Below are positions 39,852 through 48,037 of a stretch of DNA of 64,000 nucleotides, piece after piece. Under the pieces are notes generated by a model. It was given only the letters and a program-made list of their open reading frames with translations. It was not told the DNA's origin and made no database searches. The stretch is from Thermodesulforhabdaceae bacterium. GTDB taxonomy: Bacteria; Desulfobacterota; Syntrophobacteria; Syntrophobacterales; Thermodesulforhabdaceae. Made by a program: the position numbers and the translations under genes. Positions within the stretch are counted from its first letter, which is position 1, and every line of letters starts with the position of its first letter. Location: positions 62,001 to 126,000 of the forward strand of contig JBBFKT010000006.1 in NCBI GenBank assembly GCA_037482015.1, read 5' to 3'.

Positions 39852-42800
39852 ATGCTTTCCAAGTTTTTTCTCGATCGGCCGGTTTTTGCCTGGGTTATTG
39901 CTATTTTTATGATGCTTGGAGGTGCCCTCGCTATCTATCTCATGCCGGTTTCTCAGTATCCCAACCTGGCTCCACCTTCCATTTATATAATGGCGACTTA
40001 CCCCGGAGCATCAGCAGAAACCGTTGAAAGCACGGTCACTCAGATTATAGAGCAGAAAATGACCGGTCTGGACAATCTAATCTACATGTCCGCAACAAGC
40101 GATTCCTCCGGTACGTCTCGAATAGAACTTACCTTTGCTCCCGGAACCGATCCTGACCTTGCTTGGGCTAAGGTGCAAAATAAACTTCAGCTTGCTATGG
40201 CGAGCCTCCCTTCTGTGGTTCAGGAAATGGGCATCACTGTGGGTAAAGCTACCAGAAACTTTCTAATGATTGTGGGACTCATTTCCGAAGATGGAAGTAT
40301 GGATGGGAGTGATCTTAGGGACTATGCTCAGTCGAACCTTGAAAAGGTGCTGGCGCGTATACCCGGTGTTGGTGAAGTGCAAAATTTCGGCACTCAGTAC
40401 GCCATGCGAATTTGGCTAGATCCCGATAAGCTCATAAGTTATCATCTTACCGTTGATGATGTAGTTCAAGCTCTAAGGAGTTACAATGTAGAGATTTCCG
40501 CAGGGCAGTTTGGTGGTGCGCCTGCTGTGCCCGGTCAGCGGTTAAATGCTTCCATCATCGTTCAGCATTTTCTAAGAACCCCTGATGAATTTGCCGCCAT
40601 ACCAGTTCGGATTAATACTGATGGTTCTATTATTCGAGTAAGTGATCTCGGGCGAGTTGAACTCGGGACGGAATCTTACGATGTGCAGTTTTTTTATAAT
40701 GGAAAGCCAGGAGCCGCCATGGGTATTCGACTCATGGCTGGAGCAAATGCTCTCGACACCGCCGATCGTATAAAGCAAAAGCTAGACGAATTAAAACCCT
40801 TTTTCCCATCAGGAATGAAAGTTGTTTACCCCTTTGATACCACACCCTTTACTAGGGTAGCCATAAAGGAAGTGGTCAAAACTCTATTCGAAGCGGTCAT
40901 TCTCGTATTTTTGATCATGTGGGTTTTTCTGGGAAGTTTTCGAGCGACCATTATCCCAACCGTGGCTGTTCCCGTGGTGCTTCTTGGCACCTTTGGCATA
41001 CTTGCTCTTGCAGGTTTTTCTATTAATATGCTCACCATGTTTGCCACCGTCCTTGCTATTGGGCTTCTGGTGGACGATGCCATTGTTGTTGTGGAAAACG
41101 TTGAGCGAATTATGGAAGAAGAAGGACTTCCGCCCAAAGAAGCCACTGCAAAGTCTATGGAACAAATCACCAGTGCCCTTATTGGCATTGGGCTTGTGCT
41201 TTCGGCTGTTTTTGGTCCTATGGCTTTTTTCCCTGGGTCAACCGGTATCCTTTACCGCCAGTTTGCTGTAACCATTATTTCTGCTATGCTTCTTTCGGTT
41301 ATCGTGGCTCTAATTCTCACTCCAGTTCTCTGTGCCACTTTTCTAAAACCACCCACGCCCGGCGTTAAGCCTGGTGAAAATGCTATCCCAATTCTGAGAC
41401 CTTTCTTCAGGCTTTTTAATAAAGGCTTTTCGAGAGCAAGGCGATTTTATGTGGAAACCGTGGGGCGATCTTTTACGAGAGTCGCTAGATATATCGCGGT
41501 GTATCTCCTTATTATTGTAACTGTTGGATTTTTGCTGATGCGTCTTCCGACAGCCTATCTCCCAGAAGAAGATCAAGGAATTTTGTTAACTCAGGTTATC
41601 CTTCCGTCCGGATCCACTTTAGAACAAACCCAACAGGTGCTTGATCGTGTTCGCGATTATTTCCTTACCAAGGAAAGCGATGCCGTTGAATCCTGTGGAA
41701 CTCTTGCCGGTTTTAGTTATTCCGGACGTTCTCAAAATAACGGTCTTGTATTCGTGAAGCTAAAAGACTGGCATCTCAGAGACAAGCAGGATTTGAAAGT
41801 TTGGGCTATCGCCAGACGAGCAATGATGGCTTTTTCGTCTATCAAGCAGGGAATGGTATTTGTCTTTCCTCCACCTTCTATCATAGAACTCGGAAACGCC
41901 ACCGGTTTTGATTTTCAGTTGCTCGATTTTGGTGGTATGGGTCATGCAGCCCTTATGGAAGCCAGAAATGAGCTACTTGCTATGGCGGCCAACGATCCAA
42001 GGCTTGCTCGAGTGCGCCATAACGGTATGGACGATGTTCCTCAGTATAAGATTGATGTGGATTGGGAAAAAGCGGGCGCATTGGGCATACCTATTTCGTC
42101 TATTCATCAGACGATTTCCGCCATGTTTGGTGGTGCCTATGTGAACGACTTTGTTCATGCCGAGCGAGTAAAGCGAGTTTACGTTCAGGCTGATGCGCCA
42201 TATCGAATGCTTCCGAAGGATCTCGATAAAATCTATGTAAGAAACAAAGAAGGCAAAATGGTGCCCTTTTCGGCTTTCGCTACGGGATACTGGACATACG
42301 GTTCCCCAAGACTTGAACGTTACAACGGCTTTCCTTCCATAAATATCTGGGGAGAACCGGCTCCTGGAAGGAGTACTGGAGAAGCTATGAAAGCCATGGA
42401 AGAGTTGATCCAGAAGCTTCCCAAAGGTTTTGGATTTGACTGGACAGGGCTTTCATACCAGGAACGGATGTCGACTTCCCAAGCTCCCATCCTTTACACT
42501 TTTTCGGTCATCGTTATCTTCCTTTGCGTTGCTGCTCTCTTTGAAAGCTGGACTATACCCTTTGTTAATATGCTTATGTTCCCATTAGGCGTCTTTGGCG
42601 CTTTACTGGCGACCTATCTCCGGGGGCTTCCAAACGACGTTTATTTTCAGATAGGTTTTTTGACTACTCTTGGTCTTTCTACCAAAAACGCTATCCTTAT
42701 CATCCAGTTCATTCAGCATGCTATGAAAACTCAAGGTATGGGATTTGTAGATGCTACTCTTAGTGCAGTTCGGATAAGGTTTAGGCCCGTTTTAATGACA

Positions 42801-44447
42801 TCGTTTGCTTTCTTCTTTGGCACTCTTCCTTTAGCTTTAACATCCGGTGCTGGAGCAGGCTCTATGAATGCTATAGGAACTGCTGTCACAGGTGGGATGC
42901 TTTCGGCAACTTTCATCGATCTATTTTACATTCCTCTTTTCTTCGTTCTGGTATCGCGACTGTTTAGAAAAAACAATAAGGAAGGATCATCACCTGACTC
43001 TCCTGGAACAGGTAAAGTCTCATCTCTCCTTGTCATGATAGGTGTTGTAACTGTTTTACTAGCGGGATGTTCTTTAATTCCTAAGTATGATCGTCCCGAA
43101 TCTCCTGTTCCTAAGACGTGGCCTAAAGCGGAGAAAGATTCAAGGTTAACAGAAGGAACAGATACTAGCTTATCTCAGGAACAGGAAAAGGCTCCACCCG
43201 ATATTTCCTGGAAAAACTTTTTCATCGATGAACGTCTTCAAAAACTTATAGAACTTGCTTTGGCGAATAACCGAGATCTAAAGCTAGCTGTTATGAACGT
43301 TGAACGGGCTCGAGCTCTTTACGGGATTCAGCGAACGGAGCTTTATCCTTCTGTAAGTGGTTCAGCTAGTGCCAGCATTCAAAGAACGGCTGCAAAGCTT
43401 TCCATGAGTGGTGAGCCTAAAATAGAAGAAAAATACAGTTTGAATCTTGGGATAGCTTCCTGGGAACTGGATTTCTTCGGGCGTATTCGTAGCCTTGAAA
43501 AGGCAGCTCTGGAAGACTACTTTGCAACCGAAGAAGCTCGAAGAAGCGCTCAGATTTCTTTAATCTCCTCTCTTGCTCAGGCTTATTATACTCTTGCTGC
43601 TGATCGGGAAGCTCTGGCTCTTGCCAGGTCAACGTTGAAAACTCAGGAGGAAACCTATCGTCTTATCGAACGTCGTTTTTCGGTAGGGCTTGCAACCGAG
43701 ATAGACAGACGTAGAGCTGAGACTCAGGTGGAAACCGCAAAAGCTGAAGTAGCAAGGCTCACACGGCAGGTGGCTCAGGATGAAAACGCTTTGCAACTTC
43801 TAGTGGGAACTTCGATCCAGAAAGAACTTTTTCCTGACAGTGAATCACAAATCAAACCACCAGGGGATGTCTCGCCCGGGCTTTCATCGGAAGTGCTCTT
43901 ACGCCGGCCTGATATTCTCGCTGCAGAACACCAGCTCAAAGCTGCTTATGCTAACCTTGGTGCGGCTAGAGCAGCTCTCTTTCCCAGGATTTCTCTTACC
44001 ACATCGGTCGGCACGGCGAGCAGTGAACTGACGGGACTTTTTGCGGGGGGATCCTGGACGTGGAATTTTGCTAACAATCTGGTGACCCCGATCTTTGATG
44101 CTAGAGCCTGGGCGGCTCTGCGACTAACCAAGGTCGATCGCGAAATTGCAATTACACAGTATGAGCGGGCGATTCAGCGTGCGTTCAAGGAAGTGGCTGA
44201 TGAACTAGCTGTAAAGGCAACAGTGGACGACCAGATTAAAGCTCAGGAAGCTCTTGTTGAGGCTTTGAGGGAGACCCACCGTTTGGCTTTAATAAGGTAT
44301 GAAAAAGGCATTGATAACTACCTGAGCGTTCTCGATGCTCAGCGATCTCTTTACGCTGCTGAACAGCAACTTATTTCACTTCGTCTTGCTCGAAGTGCCA
44401 ATAGAGTAAGGCTTTATGCAGTGCTTGGGGGAGGAGCGATTCCCTAG
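39852..44447 (+). CDS. RND efflux permease fused to NodT-type outer-membrane factor
   Basis: A 1531-aa single reading frame. Residues 1 to about 1035 are a full HAE1-type RND permease: start FFLDRPVFAWVIAIFMM, proton-relay Asp408-Asp409 in GLLVDDAIVVVEN and Lys945 in STKNAILIIQF. After a charged linker, residues about 1056-1072 form a new hydrophobic stretch ending in the lipobox VLLAGC (Cys1073), followed by a complete TolC/OprM-like lipoprotein: YDRPESPVPKTWP, an ASWELDFFGRIRSLEKAA segment and the second helical hairpin with LRRPDILAAEHQLKAAYA. Signal peptidase II could cut before Cys1073 and release the channel. An internal ATG (43035) exists but has no ribosome binding site. With the adaptor upstream, all three efflux parts come from two genes. 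Confidence 0.9.
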   Translation: MLSKFFLDRPVFAWVIAIFMMLGGALAIYLMPVSQYPNLAPPSIYIMATYPGASAETVESTVTQIIEQKMTGLDNLIYMSATSDSSGTSRIELTFAPGTDPDLAWAKVQNKLQLAMASLPSVVQEMGITVGKATRNFLMIVGLISEDGSMDGSDLRDYAQSNLEKVLARIPGVGEVQNFGTQYAMRIWLDPDKLISYHLTVDDVVQALRSYNVEISAGQFGGAPAVPGQRLNASIIVQHFLRTPDEFAAIPVRINTDGSIIRVSDLGRVELGTESYDVQFFYNGKPGAAMGIRLMAGANALDTADRIKQKLDELKPFFPSGMKVVYPFDTTPFTRVAIKEVVKTLFEAVILVFLIMWVFLGSFRATIIPTVAVPVVLLGTFGILALAGFSINMLTMFATVLAIGLLVDDAIVVVENVERIMEEEGLPPKEATAKSMEQITSALIGIGLVLSAVFGPMAFFPGSTGILYRQFAVTIISAMLLSVIVALILTPVLCATFLKPPTPGVKPGENAIPILRPFFRLFNKGFSRARRFYVETVGRSFTRVARYIAVYLLIIVTVGFLLMRLPTAYLPEEDQGILLTQVILPSGSTLEQTQQVLDRVRDYFLTKESDAVESCGTLAGFSYSGRSQNNGLVFVKLKDWHLRDKQDLKVWAIARRAMMAFSSIKQGMVFVFPPPSIIELGNATGFDFQLLDFGGMGHAALMEARNELLAMAANDPRLARVRHNGMDDVPQYKIDVDWEKAGALGIPISSIHQTISAMFGGAYVNDFVHAERVKRVYVQADAPYRMLPKDLDKIYVRNKEGKMVPFSAFATGYWTYGSPRLERYNGFPSINIWGEPAPGRSTGEAMKAMEELIQKLPKGFGFDWTGLSYQERMSTSQAPILYTFSVIVIFLCVAALFESWTIPFVNMLMFPLGVFGALLATYLRGLPNDVYFQIGFLTTLGLSTKNAILIIQFIQHAMKTQGMGFVDATLSAVRIRFRPVLMTSFAFFFGTLPLALTSGAGAGSMNAIGTAVTGGMLSATFIDLFYIPLFFVLVSRLFRKNNKEGSSPDSPGTGKVSSLLVMIGVVTVLLAGCSLIPKYDRPESPVPKTWPKAEKDSRLTEGTDTSLSQEQEKAPPDISWKNFFIDERLQKLIELALANNRDLKLAVMNVERARALYGIQRTELYPSVSGSASASIQRTAAKLSMSGEPKIEEKYSLNLGIASWELDFFGRIRSLEKAALEDYFATEEARRSAQISLISSLAQAYYTLAADREALALARSTLKTQEETYRLIERRFSVGLATEIDRRRAETQVETAKAEVARLTRQVAQDENALQLLVGTSIQKELFPDSESQIKPPGDVSPGLSSEVLLRRPDILAAEHQLKAAYANLGAARAALFPRISLTTSVGTASSELTGLFAGGSWTWNFANNLVTPIFDARAWAALRLTKVDREIAITQYERAIQRAFKEVADELAVKATVDDQIKAQEALVEALRETHRLALIRYEKGIDNYLSVLDAQRSLYAAEQQLISLRLARSANRVRLYAVLGGGAIP

Positions 44448-44480: not shown

Positions 44481-45077
44481 ATGGCTGATGCGAGTGATTA
44501 TACAGGAATAAGACTGTGGATAGTTACCGGCCGTGAGAAAGTAGTTGAAGAATCTGAAGAAGAGCAGAAAAGGCAACTTATTGGAAATGTGCTTCATAAG
44601 GCTATAGAACTTTTGCTTAAATATGCTCCTTACAACAGTGAAAATCTGGTGGATTTTGCCGAGCGGAGCATTCAGGCTGCCTGGGCGATTCTTAGCCGGG
44701 ATCGTGAAGTGCCGGATTATACCGAAAAAGAAAGCCTGGAAATTCAACAGGAAGCAAAAGAAATTCTGGAAAAAGCTCTGTCCCATGAGGAAATTTCTAA
44801 CCTTTTACGGGATGGAGAAGATGACACCACAGTTCGATCGGAAGTGGAAATTATCGATGAAAGAAGTCGAACTTTCCGAATCGACCTTATGAGAATAAAA
44901 CCTTCCTTGAAGTCGATAGAAGTAGTTGATTTCAAAACTCATAGAATAGATCCCGAAAAAACCAGAAACCAGCTTACTCAATATGTAAGAATAGTGAAAC
45001 GGGCTTTTGGTCCTTCGTGGGAAGTTAAAGGAATTGTTGCTTACCTGGATCCGCCTAAAGTTGAGGAGGTTTTGTGA
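44481..45077 (+). CDS. Stand-alone PD-(D/E)XK nuclease domain, AddA/RecB C-terminal type
   Basis: A 198-aa protein matching only the C-terminal nuclease domain of AddA/RecB. The motif order is right: GNVLHKAIELLLKY (the His motif), then VRSEVEIIDE, the acidic core RIDLMRI and VVDFKTHR (D-x-K), and QLTQYVRIVKRAF (Q-x-x-x-Y). No helicase motif (GxGKT, DExx) is present. It starts 33 bp after the RND fusion and its stop overlaps the AddB-like start (GTGA), so the two are coupled. AddA is usually about 1,100-1,200 aa; whether a helicase is encoded elsewhere is unknown. Confidence 0.7.
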   Translation: MADASDYTGIRLWIVTGREKVVEESEEEQKRQLIGNVLHKAIELLLKYAPYNSENLVDFAERSIQAAWAILSRDREVPDYTEKESLEIQQEAKEILEKALSHEEISNLLRDGEDDTTVRSEVEIIDERSRTFRIDLMRIKPSLKSIEVVDFKTHRIDPEKTRNQLTQYVRIVKRAFGPSWEVKGIVAYLDPPKVEEVL

Positions 45078-48037
45078 GAATAGTTCGGTTTATACCTCCG
45101 GAACGAGTCTTTCTTAAAAGTCTTGCAGATGCATACCTTTCAGAAATTGGGGAAAAAGGCCTTGAAGGTTTATGGGATACGAGACAAGAGTTTATTTTTA
45201 TTTTCCCTTCCCGTAGAGCCGGCTTGTATTTTAGGTATTACTTGGGTTGCGAAAATACAAATATTGTTCTCCCTAGGATTTATGCACTTGAAGATCTTAT
45301 AGACGAACTCGCTACATGGCATGACCCGAAGCCCAGAATTAGCTTCTTTGATCAAATATGGGAACTCTATCAGGTCGTTAGAAAAAAACTGAAAGTAATT
45401 CCGCAAACAGAAAGTTTCGAGCGGTTTATTCCCTGGGGTGTGCGACTGGTTAGTGCTTTTGAGGAAGTTGAGCGGGAAGGAGTGGAGCTACCTGAATCTG
45501 TTGTAACTCCCGATGGTCATCCGATTTTGCAAGAAATGCCCCTGGGTGCGATCTGGAAAGCCTGGAAGGAAAGAATTTCTGGAATGGGGAAGGTCACCCT
45601 GGGCATGCTCTACCGAATCTGTATAGAAAAATGGCAAGATGGGAACCTACCCGAATTTATACAAAAAGCTAATGTTAACTTTGCTGGTTTTATAAGATTT
45701 GGAACCGCTGAAAAGGCTTTTCTTAAGGCGCTTAAAGGCGACGTTACTTCATGGATTGAAGCCAACCCGGCAGATGTGCCTGACGGGACAAAAAAAATTC
45801 TTAAGGAACTGATGTTTTCTTTTCACGAGCCCGAAGAACCTATTGATTCGAACAATAAATTACCAGAAATTTGCTTTTATGAAGTTCCGGACCGCCATCA
45901 TGCTCTGGAAAAGATTACCGACCTTATAGAAACTTCTGTTGATAGCAGACCGGATAAGATTGCCGTTATAGTGCCTGATGATGGAATTCTTTTGCCACTT
46001 ATTTACGAACTTCAGGGAATTCAATCCCCAATAGATGTTAACGTTACGATGGGTTATCCGTTGCGTAGAAGCCTTGCGGCTTCCTTTGTTTTAAGCTGGT
46101 TAGAACTGCTCATGTCCAGAACTGACGATGGGCGATTCCACATGCCGTCTTTTATCCACCTGCTCCGCCATCCCTATACTAAAATGCTTGTCAGTAGAAA
46201 AACTTCGTCTGAAGCTAGCCGGTCAGGTCTTTCGTCTATTGAATCTCTTTTGCAGGATGCGGGATCGGCTTACATGAGTTTTGATGAAATTGAGAATCTT
46301 CTTAAAAACACTCCCGAAGATGATCAAGCTGCCTTTGACATTTTTGTAATAATCAGAGAACTGTTTGCTTCGGATCTCTTGTCCCGGTCGCCACTAACAA
46401 TCAGAGACGTTTTTGAAGTGACCGCTAAGGCTTTAGAAGAAATTTCTTCGCCTGGTGAACTACTTGAAAACGATCCTGGTAAGTTTGGAGGATACAAAGT
46501 CCTCCTAGAGCAGTCATTTTGCAGGGAATTTATCGAAGAAATTATAAAACCTGTGGAGAAATCTTCCTGGTCTTCCGAGCCTATTGAAAATATTTCTACT
46601 GCCTACAGGCTATTAAAGGAAACCGTGAATGTTATCAGAATTCCCTTTTCGGGAAGTCCTCTTCGAGGTCTTCAGGTTTTGGGGTTTATTGAGAGCAATC
46701 TTCTGTCGTTTGATGAAGTTTTTATTCTCGATGCAAACGAAGGCATTTTGCCGCCAAGACGGTCTTTTAATCCTGTTTTACCGGAATTGTTGAAGAAACA
46801 AGTAGGGCTTTCAACCGCTGAAGTTGAATCTTTTTTACATCGTCATCTTTTTATGCGCCTCATTAGAGCGGCTAAGAAAGTGCATATTTTTTACACGGCT
46901 ATGAGTTCTAGTCAGCGTTCTGTAAGTCGTTCTCCATTGGAGTCGGGTGCAATAAGAAGTCGTTTTGTGGAAGAACTTATATGGAAATTTAACAAACAGA
47001 AAAACTCTCTTGATGAGTCGGTTATTCCTATTCCTGTGGTCATTCCTCAGCGGGTACTCAAACGTCCGGATCGGATTGAAAAGAACAACTCTTTCGACAA
47101 AAGAATAAAAGAACTTTTAGGAGCTAAACTTTCTGCGTCTTTTTTTAATACCTATCTGAAATGTCCTGTAATGTTTTTTTACAGCTACGCGTTGGGAATT
47201 AAAGGTTATAGTGGGGAAATAGAGGAAGGACTAGAAGGGCGGGGTTATGCTGAACTTGGAATTATTATTCATAAGACGCTAGAACAATATTTTTCGAATA
47301 TTATGAAAGCTAGAGATGAAAACGGTATAAAAATTAATCCCGGTGAAATTGTTGAAATCTTCTCCAATGCTTTTAGAGATTCCAGCCTTTCTAAACGACT
47401 GGGACAGGAAAGACGCTTTTTCATTAGAGAAACCTCCGTTTATCGTTTGACTAAGTATTTGGAGTGGCTCCGAGATGAATGGCAGCCTTTTAATGTGATA
47501 AAACTGGAGCAAGAATTTTCCTGTAAAAAAGATACGAACCTGAGCGGTATAGCTAGCGTGAGCTTGGAAGGCAGGATTGATATGATAGCTTTGCGAAATA
47601 ATGATGAACTCTGGATTGTTGATTATAAAACGGGTTCTCCACCAGAACCGAAATTTTCCCGGGATGATTTACGTAATTTCGTCGAAAGCGAAATTGACCT
47701 TTCCTACAGCGAAAAACTTGTTCAGGCAAGAGAATATATTGAAGATATCCAGCTTCCTTTCTATGGTTTTCTAATAAAACAATCTGGCTTTATTGAAGAA
47801 ATCCAGCGAGAGATAAAAGCTGTTAAGGCTTGTTACCACGCTTTGGGAGCTGGTAAATCTGATGATTATCAAATCGAAATGAAAGAAAATATTTTAGAAA
47901 TATCTCAAGTTTTTGATGATTTTCTTGGTTTTCTGCTCGATCACATCGTTAATTCCGAAGCTTTCTTTGCCACGAATGATTTGGATACTTGCAATAGATG
48001 TGATTACGCCAAGATTTGTTCATGTTCTTTAGTGTAA
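45074..48037 (+). CDS. AddB-like nuclease/inactivated helicase (PD-(D/E)XK family)
   Basis: A 987-aa protein resembling AddB of the AddAB recombination nuclease. The N-terminal two thirds has a helicase-like fold without a usable Walker A; FIFIFPSRRAGLYFRYYL occupies that place. ANEGILPPRRSFNPVLPELL matches the AddB motif region. The C-terminal nuclease domain has FFNTYLKCPVMFFYSYALG (Cys697), HKTLEQYFSN, the core IDMIALRNND with VDYKTG, and the final CNRCDYAKIC (Cys near 973, 976 and 982). Those four cysteines are the AddB-type [4Fe-4S] site. It starts with GTG overlapping the upstream nuclease gene and is followed by a hairpin. Confidence 0.78.
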   Translation: MRIVRFIPPERVFLKSLADAYLSEIGEKGLEGLWDTRQEFIFIFPSRRAGLYFRYYLGCENTNIVLPRIYALEDLIDELATWHDPKPRISFFDQIWELYQVVRKKLKVIPQTESFERFIPWGVRLVSAFEEVEREGVELPESVVTPDGHPILQEMPLGAIWKAWKERISGMGKVTLGMLYRICIEKWQDGNLPEFIQKANVNFAGFIRFGTAEKAFLKALKGDVTSWIEANPADVPDGTKKILKELMFSFHEPEEPIDSNNKLPEICFYEVPDRHHALEKITDLIETSVDSRPDKIAVIVPDDGILLPLIYELQGIQSPIDVNVTMGYPLRRSLAASFVLSWLELLMSRTDDGRFHMPSFIHLLRHPYTKMLVSRKTSSEASRSGLSSIESLLQDAGSAYMSFDEIENLLKNTPEDDQAAFDIFVIIRELFASDLLSRSPLTIRDVFEVTAKALEEISSPGELLENDPGKFGGYKVLLEQSFCREFIEEIIKPVEKSSWSSEPIENISTAYRLLKETVNVIRIPFSGSPLRGLQVLGFIESNLLSFDEVFILDANEGILPPRRSFNPVLPELLKKQVGLSTAEVESFLHRHLFMRLIRAAKKVHIFYTAMSSSQRSVSRSPLESGAIRSRFVEELIWKFNKQKNSLDESVIPIPVVIPQRVLKRPDRIEKNNSFDKRIKELLGAKLSASFFNTYLKCPVMFFYSYALGIKGYSGEIEEGLEGRGYAELGIIIHKTLEQYFSNIMKARDENGIKINPGEIVEIFSNAFRDSSLSKRLGQERRFFIRETSVYRLTKYLEWLRDEWQPFNVIKLEQEFSCKKDTNLSGIASVSLEGRIDMIALRNNDELWIVDYKTGSPPEPKFSRDDLRNFVESEIDLSYSEKLVQAREYIEDIQLPFYGFLIKQSGFIEEIQREIKAVKACYHALGAGKSDDYQIEMKENILEISQVFDDFLGFLLDHIVNSEAFFATNDLDTCNRCDYAKICSCSLV

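Follow-up and report, generated by a model that had tools for sequence, protein, structure and literature searches.

A probable split AddAB with separate helicase, nuclease and AddB genes in a Thermodesulforhabdaceae bacterium and other members of its phylum

Two adjacent genes in the window (the whole stretch of 64,000 nucleotides analysed here, C6:62001–126000) very probably encode two thirds of a split AddAB, that is, of a three-subunit complex without a tether between helicase and nuclease. AddAB trims the ends of broken DNA in preparation for repair. The first gene specifies a small stand-alone nuclease, here called N, and the second the AddB subunit, called B (Table 1); the third component, an AddA-type helicase called H, is encoded outside the window. 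Based on a survey of relatives, the set of H, N and B was verified in 29 genomes of the phylum, the present genome (G000) included. As far as our literature search reaches, a tether-less AddAB made from three genes is previously undescribed: we found no paper on it, and an earlier description is possible.

Table 1. Positions, in the window, of the nuclease and AddB genes and of features within them.
Feature	Position	Strand	Remarks
N, stand-alone AddA/RecB-type PD-(D/E)XK nuclease	44481..45077	+	198 aa, ATG start, no cysteine
Shine-Dalgarno-like GAGGAGG in the last part of the N gene, before the AddB GTG	45063..45069	+	putative ribosome-binding site
B, AddB-like subunit	45074..48037	+	987 aa, GTG start, 4-nt overlap with the N stop
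AddB C-terminal PD-(D/E)XK nuclease domain	47129..48019	+	Cys697, 973, 976 and 982; putative [4Fe-4S] type

The preliminary description had reported a nuclease of this size without a helicase part, and its ORF was confirmed. N matches Pfam PDDEXK_1 at 5.6e-7, above the curated cut-off, and its motif residues are all in place (G35, H39, R133, D135, D150, K152, Q164 and Y168); when 20 stand-alone homologues were aligned, G35, H39, R133, D135, K152 and Y168 did not vary. Among NCBIfam models, N is matched best by the nuclease part at the C-terminus of a RecB-like helicase (NF010485, 752–905 of 909; 5.4e-7). The N proteins of three relatives that were scanned fell below the Pfam cut-off, and against solved structures the N profile reached AddA weakly (E = 0.45), with chance-level matches ahead of it (myosin light chain, E = 0.046). 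AlphaFold, given this N alone as a single sequence, returned a poor model (pLDDT 41.4), which is left out of the argument. Cas4 and solo Cas4 are small nucleases with an Fe-S cysteine cluster and differ in this from N. Because the branches of H, N and B from this genome are long, that of N above all (2.22 in the trees of 25 genomes), constraint on this N may be relaxed.

The second protein, placed among AddB-type proteins by Pfam and NCBIfam, agrees with its earlier identification as AddB-like. PDDEXK_1 was recognized at residues 686–982 (1.4e-27, Pfam) and the nuclease residues H733, D836, D850, K852, Q893 and Y897 are present; in 15 homologues, these residues and the four cysteines either do not vary or are conserved to at least 90%. 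The cysteine motif suggests a [4Fe-4S] cluster. A Walker A motif was looked for in the window AddB and none was found. The overlap of the N stop with the B start, already noticed from the ORFs, has the sequence GTGA, and the translation of N and B is presumably coupled. The nearest upstream ORF stops at 44447, leaving a gap of 33 bp to N. This ORF (39852–44447, forward strand, 1531 aa) combines a complete RND pump of the AcrB family (residues 3–1034) with an OEP (outer membrane efflux protein) part that reaches residue 1526, with the lipoprotein-signal-like LLAGC between the two, and possibly represents an inner-membrane/outer-membrane fusion that is cleaved at the lipobox.

The usual motor subunit had been described as absent. 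This holds for the N–B locus but not for the genome: a search for an AddA- or UvrD-type helicase lacking the nuclease domain found one of 840 aa (C6:56582–59104) on the same strand as N–B. It ends upstream of both, 2.9 kb from the window start and 47,377 bp from N, and shares one 155-kb contig with N–B. PF00580 was recognized at two loci in the genome, namely a 645-aa frame of UvrD/PcrA size and this AddA-type helicase; at 95% completeness of the genome, another AddA might have escaped the search. H retains the conserved SF1 motif blocks and, among NCBIfam models, is matched best by a RecB-like helicase (3.5e-86). The earlier suggestion of a helicase encoded elsewhere as a gene of its own is thus supported, and in relatives the nuclease-less helicase is found directly before N.

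H of this genome stops 22 residues past motif VI, which is the shortest of the 10 H tails measured, and 6 bp beyond it lies the end of the next ORF, on the opposite strand. Upstream of H (locus L003, 4666–8559) are an AAA (MoxR-like) gene, another ORF and a TgpA/transglutaminase gene that ends 22 bp before H; owing to this small gap, H probably belongs to the AAA/transglutaminase transcript. Since N–B follows the efflux gene and H follows the transglutaminase gene, each at a short distance (33 bp and 22 bp), co-expression of H with N–B is not guaranteed. An insertion of about 18 residues near residues 721–741 of this H (L003 8582–11104), before the TIHGAKGLEFP motif, is absent from the three relatives of the family. 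H also matches GajB models of the Gabija system (GajAB) at 1.8e-33, more weakly than the RecB-like model, and its neighbours, the transglutaminase gene and the opposite-strand gene, do not fit Gabija, in which GajB lies beside GajA (ATPase-TOPRIM). With weak PADLOC matches for N and B in addition, a reading of these genes as a defence system was rejected.

Three arrangements were found in the 29 genomes. H, N and B are contiguous, with mostly overlapping ORFs, in 14 genomes of families f1, f15, f33, f34 and f94 (namely, G001, G003, G068, G216, G121, G049, G086, G228, G291, G179, G151, G408, G338 and G300). H is separate from N–B in ten, that is, in the present genome and nine f33 genomes (genera g49/g117), and H–N is separate from B in the remaining five (G002, G238, G390, G280 and G191). 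H therefore lies immediately before N in 19 of the 29. The three-gene order has thus been broken in either possible way, and all three frames are kept each time. Comparison of the gene order in close relatives shows that the split form recurs: helicase, small nuclease and AddB are contiguous in one genome of the same genus (G001) and in one of the same family (G003), and in another member of the family (G002) helicase and nuclease are adjacent and AddB is on another contig. The possibility raised earlier, that close relatives carry a full AddA at this place and that the locus is a truncated remnant of it, does not agree with these three split genomes. In a fourth genome of the family (G004) the split set gives way to an AddA of full length, which belongs to a distant lineage and lies elsewhere (L044 5555–9175); the system has thus been replaced within the family.

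The phylum sample comprised 395 genomes, of which 80 have H at E ≤ 1e-40: the split was verified in 28, a frame of at least 1000 aa is present in 45, and seven are cut or short; G002, from outside the sample, is the 29th verified split genome. In G137, G260 and G319, the H without nuclease was judged from frame length only. Among the seven cut or short cases, the N-profile scan placed the nuclease in the same long frame in G162, G180 and G205, G271 has a separate 186-aa nuclease frame beside an H fragment, and G088, G202 and G204 were assigned to neither the split nor the fused class. Across the 395 genomes, N matches are in short frames of 182–269 aa (26 genomes) or in long frames of at least 847 aa, with four exceptions (G305, 139 aa; G299, 196 aa; G129, 212 aa; G088, 412 aa), those of G299 and G129 being short frames with partial N-profile matches. 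The stand-alone nuclease beside AddB, found in many genomes by the N profile, is far beyond chance. A scan of genome contigs with H gave one distant match, in Uhrbacteria, and a plasmid search with H gave distant matches only (284 records, all below 60% identity).

In the fused form, found in families f44, f58, f17, f12 and others, H and N make up one AddA ORF of 1026–1484 aa. These fused AddA-AddB loci of the same phylum are homologous to the split set along H, N and B and have the same order, and differ by having H and N in one ORF; when a profile made solely from stand-alone N was run against fused AddA, the C-terminal domain of the latter matched at 1e-11 to 4e-27. AddB directly follows the fused AddA in nearly all loci inspected, the exceptions being L099 and L108, without an adjacent AddB; L108 and L044 are without a nuclease match. 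The linker from motif VI to GxxxH has 93–101 residues (about 98) in nine fused ORFs, and in ten split pairs 22–53 residues follow motif VI and 6–36 precede GxxxH, the measurement being restricted to ORFs and pairs in which both patterns were found. These distances place the break in the linker. In a helicase tree of 55 rows, the fused/split label requires two changes of state, and a tree constrained to one split clade is not rejected, its fit being slightly above that of the unconstrained tree (p-AU 0.606). We read this as a probable fission of a fused AddA, the direction resting on rooting with distant fused AddA rows. Some fused AddA proteins (L069 343–4797 in G326, L110 and L111) have long N-terminal extensions before the helicase, of about 385 and 150 residues.

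H, N and B share much of their history. In 25 of the 29 genomes (G121, in which AddB is cut by a contig end, and G137, G260 and G319 were left out of the trees), tree-distance correlations are 0.970 for H–B, 0.951 for H–N and 0.945 for N–B, and none of 2000 shuffles was as high. RecA distances from the same genomes correlate with those of H, N and B at only 0.545–0.601, and after RecA was regressed out the partial correlations are still 0.957, 0.927 and 0.922. RecA, 88% identical, makes the present genome and G001 sisters, and yet identity falls to 34% for H, 25% for N and 28% for B; a clade of H from G000–G003 is rejected (p 8e-5). H and B of the present genome are nearest to f33/f68/f94 members in their trees, and its N, on a long branch, is placed with little certainty. 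The agreeing trees and the joint divergence suggest, with the caveat of long branches, that the three genes changed or travelled as a set in spite of the unlinked H.

According to PMC4824097, AddAB has one SF1A motor and two nucleases, each dedicated to one strand, and in the solved complex the AddA nuclease domain rests on the AddB surface and is attenuated after Chi. Given this layout, the present genes are most simply read as coding for such a complex, in which non-covalent contacts alone would hold the AddA nuclease; the coupling of N to AddB here agrees with this. AddA would be divided in the linker between an SF1A (UvrD-type) motor and the C-terminal nuclease, and the products would be H of about 840 aa, N of about 170–235 aa and B of about 950 aa, which carries Fe-S cysteines and a nuclease of its own; the three would assemble non-covalently. 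H, the sole subunit of the three with ATPase motifs, would unwind the broken end 3'→5'; N, docked on B at the position of the AddA nuclease domain in solved AddAB, would cut the 3'-ended strand, and the nuclease of B the 5'-ended strand. A regulatory event would then spare the 3' strand and leave a tail for RecA. We infer the physical assembly of H, N and B, the assignment of strands to the nucleases and any Chi-like regulation. In the present genome H would have moved 47 kb from N–B, and with H at this distance the assembly must be in trans from two transcripts. A further, rather unlikely reading is that N is a dissociable, separately supplied subunit and that its leaving or joining an H–B core, or its amount, switches the complex from destruction of both strands to formation of a 3' tail. 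If true, this would be a switch without a swinging tethered domain or an AddB latch, and a natural test of models of control by the tether.

Other explanations of the locus were weighed against the split AddAB. The arrangement here might be the decaying remains of an AddA that was cut by rearrangement and whose pieces are drifting; the 47 kb between H and N, the short tail of H and the long branches in this genome would agree with such decay. However, all three frames are open with their motif residues intact, and H and N are separate and intact in 28 other genomes, which indicates that the split is old and has been kept. With the split conserved in 29 genomes and in three arrangements, a truncated remnant was rejected as improbable. 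The preliminary description had also proposed a two-nuclease complex of another kind; N and B in it might work with some other helicase, or with no AddA-type motor at all. N and B are indeed paired without an adjacent H in the present genome and in nine f33 genomes, but H was found in every verified genome, lies directly before N in most of them, and has a history in common with N and B beyond that of RecA. That proposal is thus unsupported and very improbable.

The overlap of genes could also be read differently, since in most operon forms the start of N lies inside the end of H, and programmed frameshifting or reinitiation might yield a single H–N protein, an AddA fused in effect. Such a fusion is impossible where H is remote, as in the present genome (47 kb) and the nine f33 genomes, and we consider it highly improbable in general. 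An error of assembly or gene calling might be suspected because most of the genomes are draft assemblies, and yet H and N–B are on a single contig here, and the same forms occur in genomes of a single contig, with H apart in G103, G067, G137 and G165, B apart in G238, and the operon form in G300, G338 and G151. The chance of an artefact therefore seems close to negligible. In short, the split AddAB is the reading we retain.

The present set resembles AddAB/RexAB (Bacillus subtilis type; 3u4q/3u44) in having a single AddA/RecB-type SF1A motor (H, outside the window), two PD-(D/E)XK nucleases and an AddB that bears four Fe-S cysteines and a C-terminal nuclease; chain A of 3u44 is hit by the motor profile at 4.7e-41. 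It differs from AddAB/RexAB in that motor and first nuclease are separate polypeptides, N being an ORF of its own, AddB is without a Walker A motif and the three genes are partly unlinked. Mycobacterial AdnAB is likewise a helicase-nuclease for double-strand break ends with two nucleases. In AdnAB, however, AdnA and AdnB each carry a motor and a nuclease on one chain, whereas the present AddB is without Walker A and the present motor without a nuclease. RecBCD is alike in the RecB subunit, a motor with a C-terminal nuclease. Its nuclease is tethered, there is no second active nuclease, and RecC is inactivated; in the present system, the tether-less form is natural and the nuclease residues of AddB are intact, unlike those of the inactivated RecC-type partner. 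In connection with RecBCD, Pavankumar et al. (2024) is cited in the reference lists of PMC13254535, PMC13101046 and PMC12135197. A split AddA was named in none of the titles and beginnings of abstracts searched, a coverage from which subscription papers are mostly absent, and in the parts seen of Rocha 2005 (PMC1193525) and PMC6452273 there is no split AddA, the word 'split' being absent from the main texts. A natural and widely kept tether-less AddA directly raises the question of whether regulation needs the tether. In addition, split genomes can be miscounted as lacking AddAB, because curated models of full-length AddA score the parts far below their cut-offs.

Two minor observations concern the f33 genomes. 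QLxLF, a sliding-clamp-like motif, was found at the C-termini of N in the f33 genomes of genera g49/g117 (L134–L142). It was rejected as a sliding-clamp motif: the stretch overlaps the start of AddB by about 50 bases or more, and is the conserved AddB N-terminus (SSHFLKTL or similar) read in another frame, hence probably a by-product. Near H of two f33 genomes of genus g49 (L090 and L091) there are genes resembling those of sulphate reduction, and these genomes may belong to thermophilic, Thermodesulfobacteria-like organisms.
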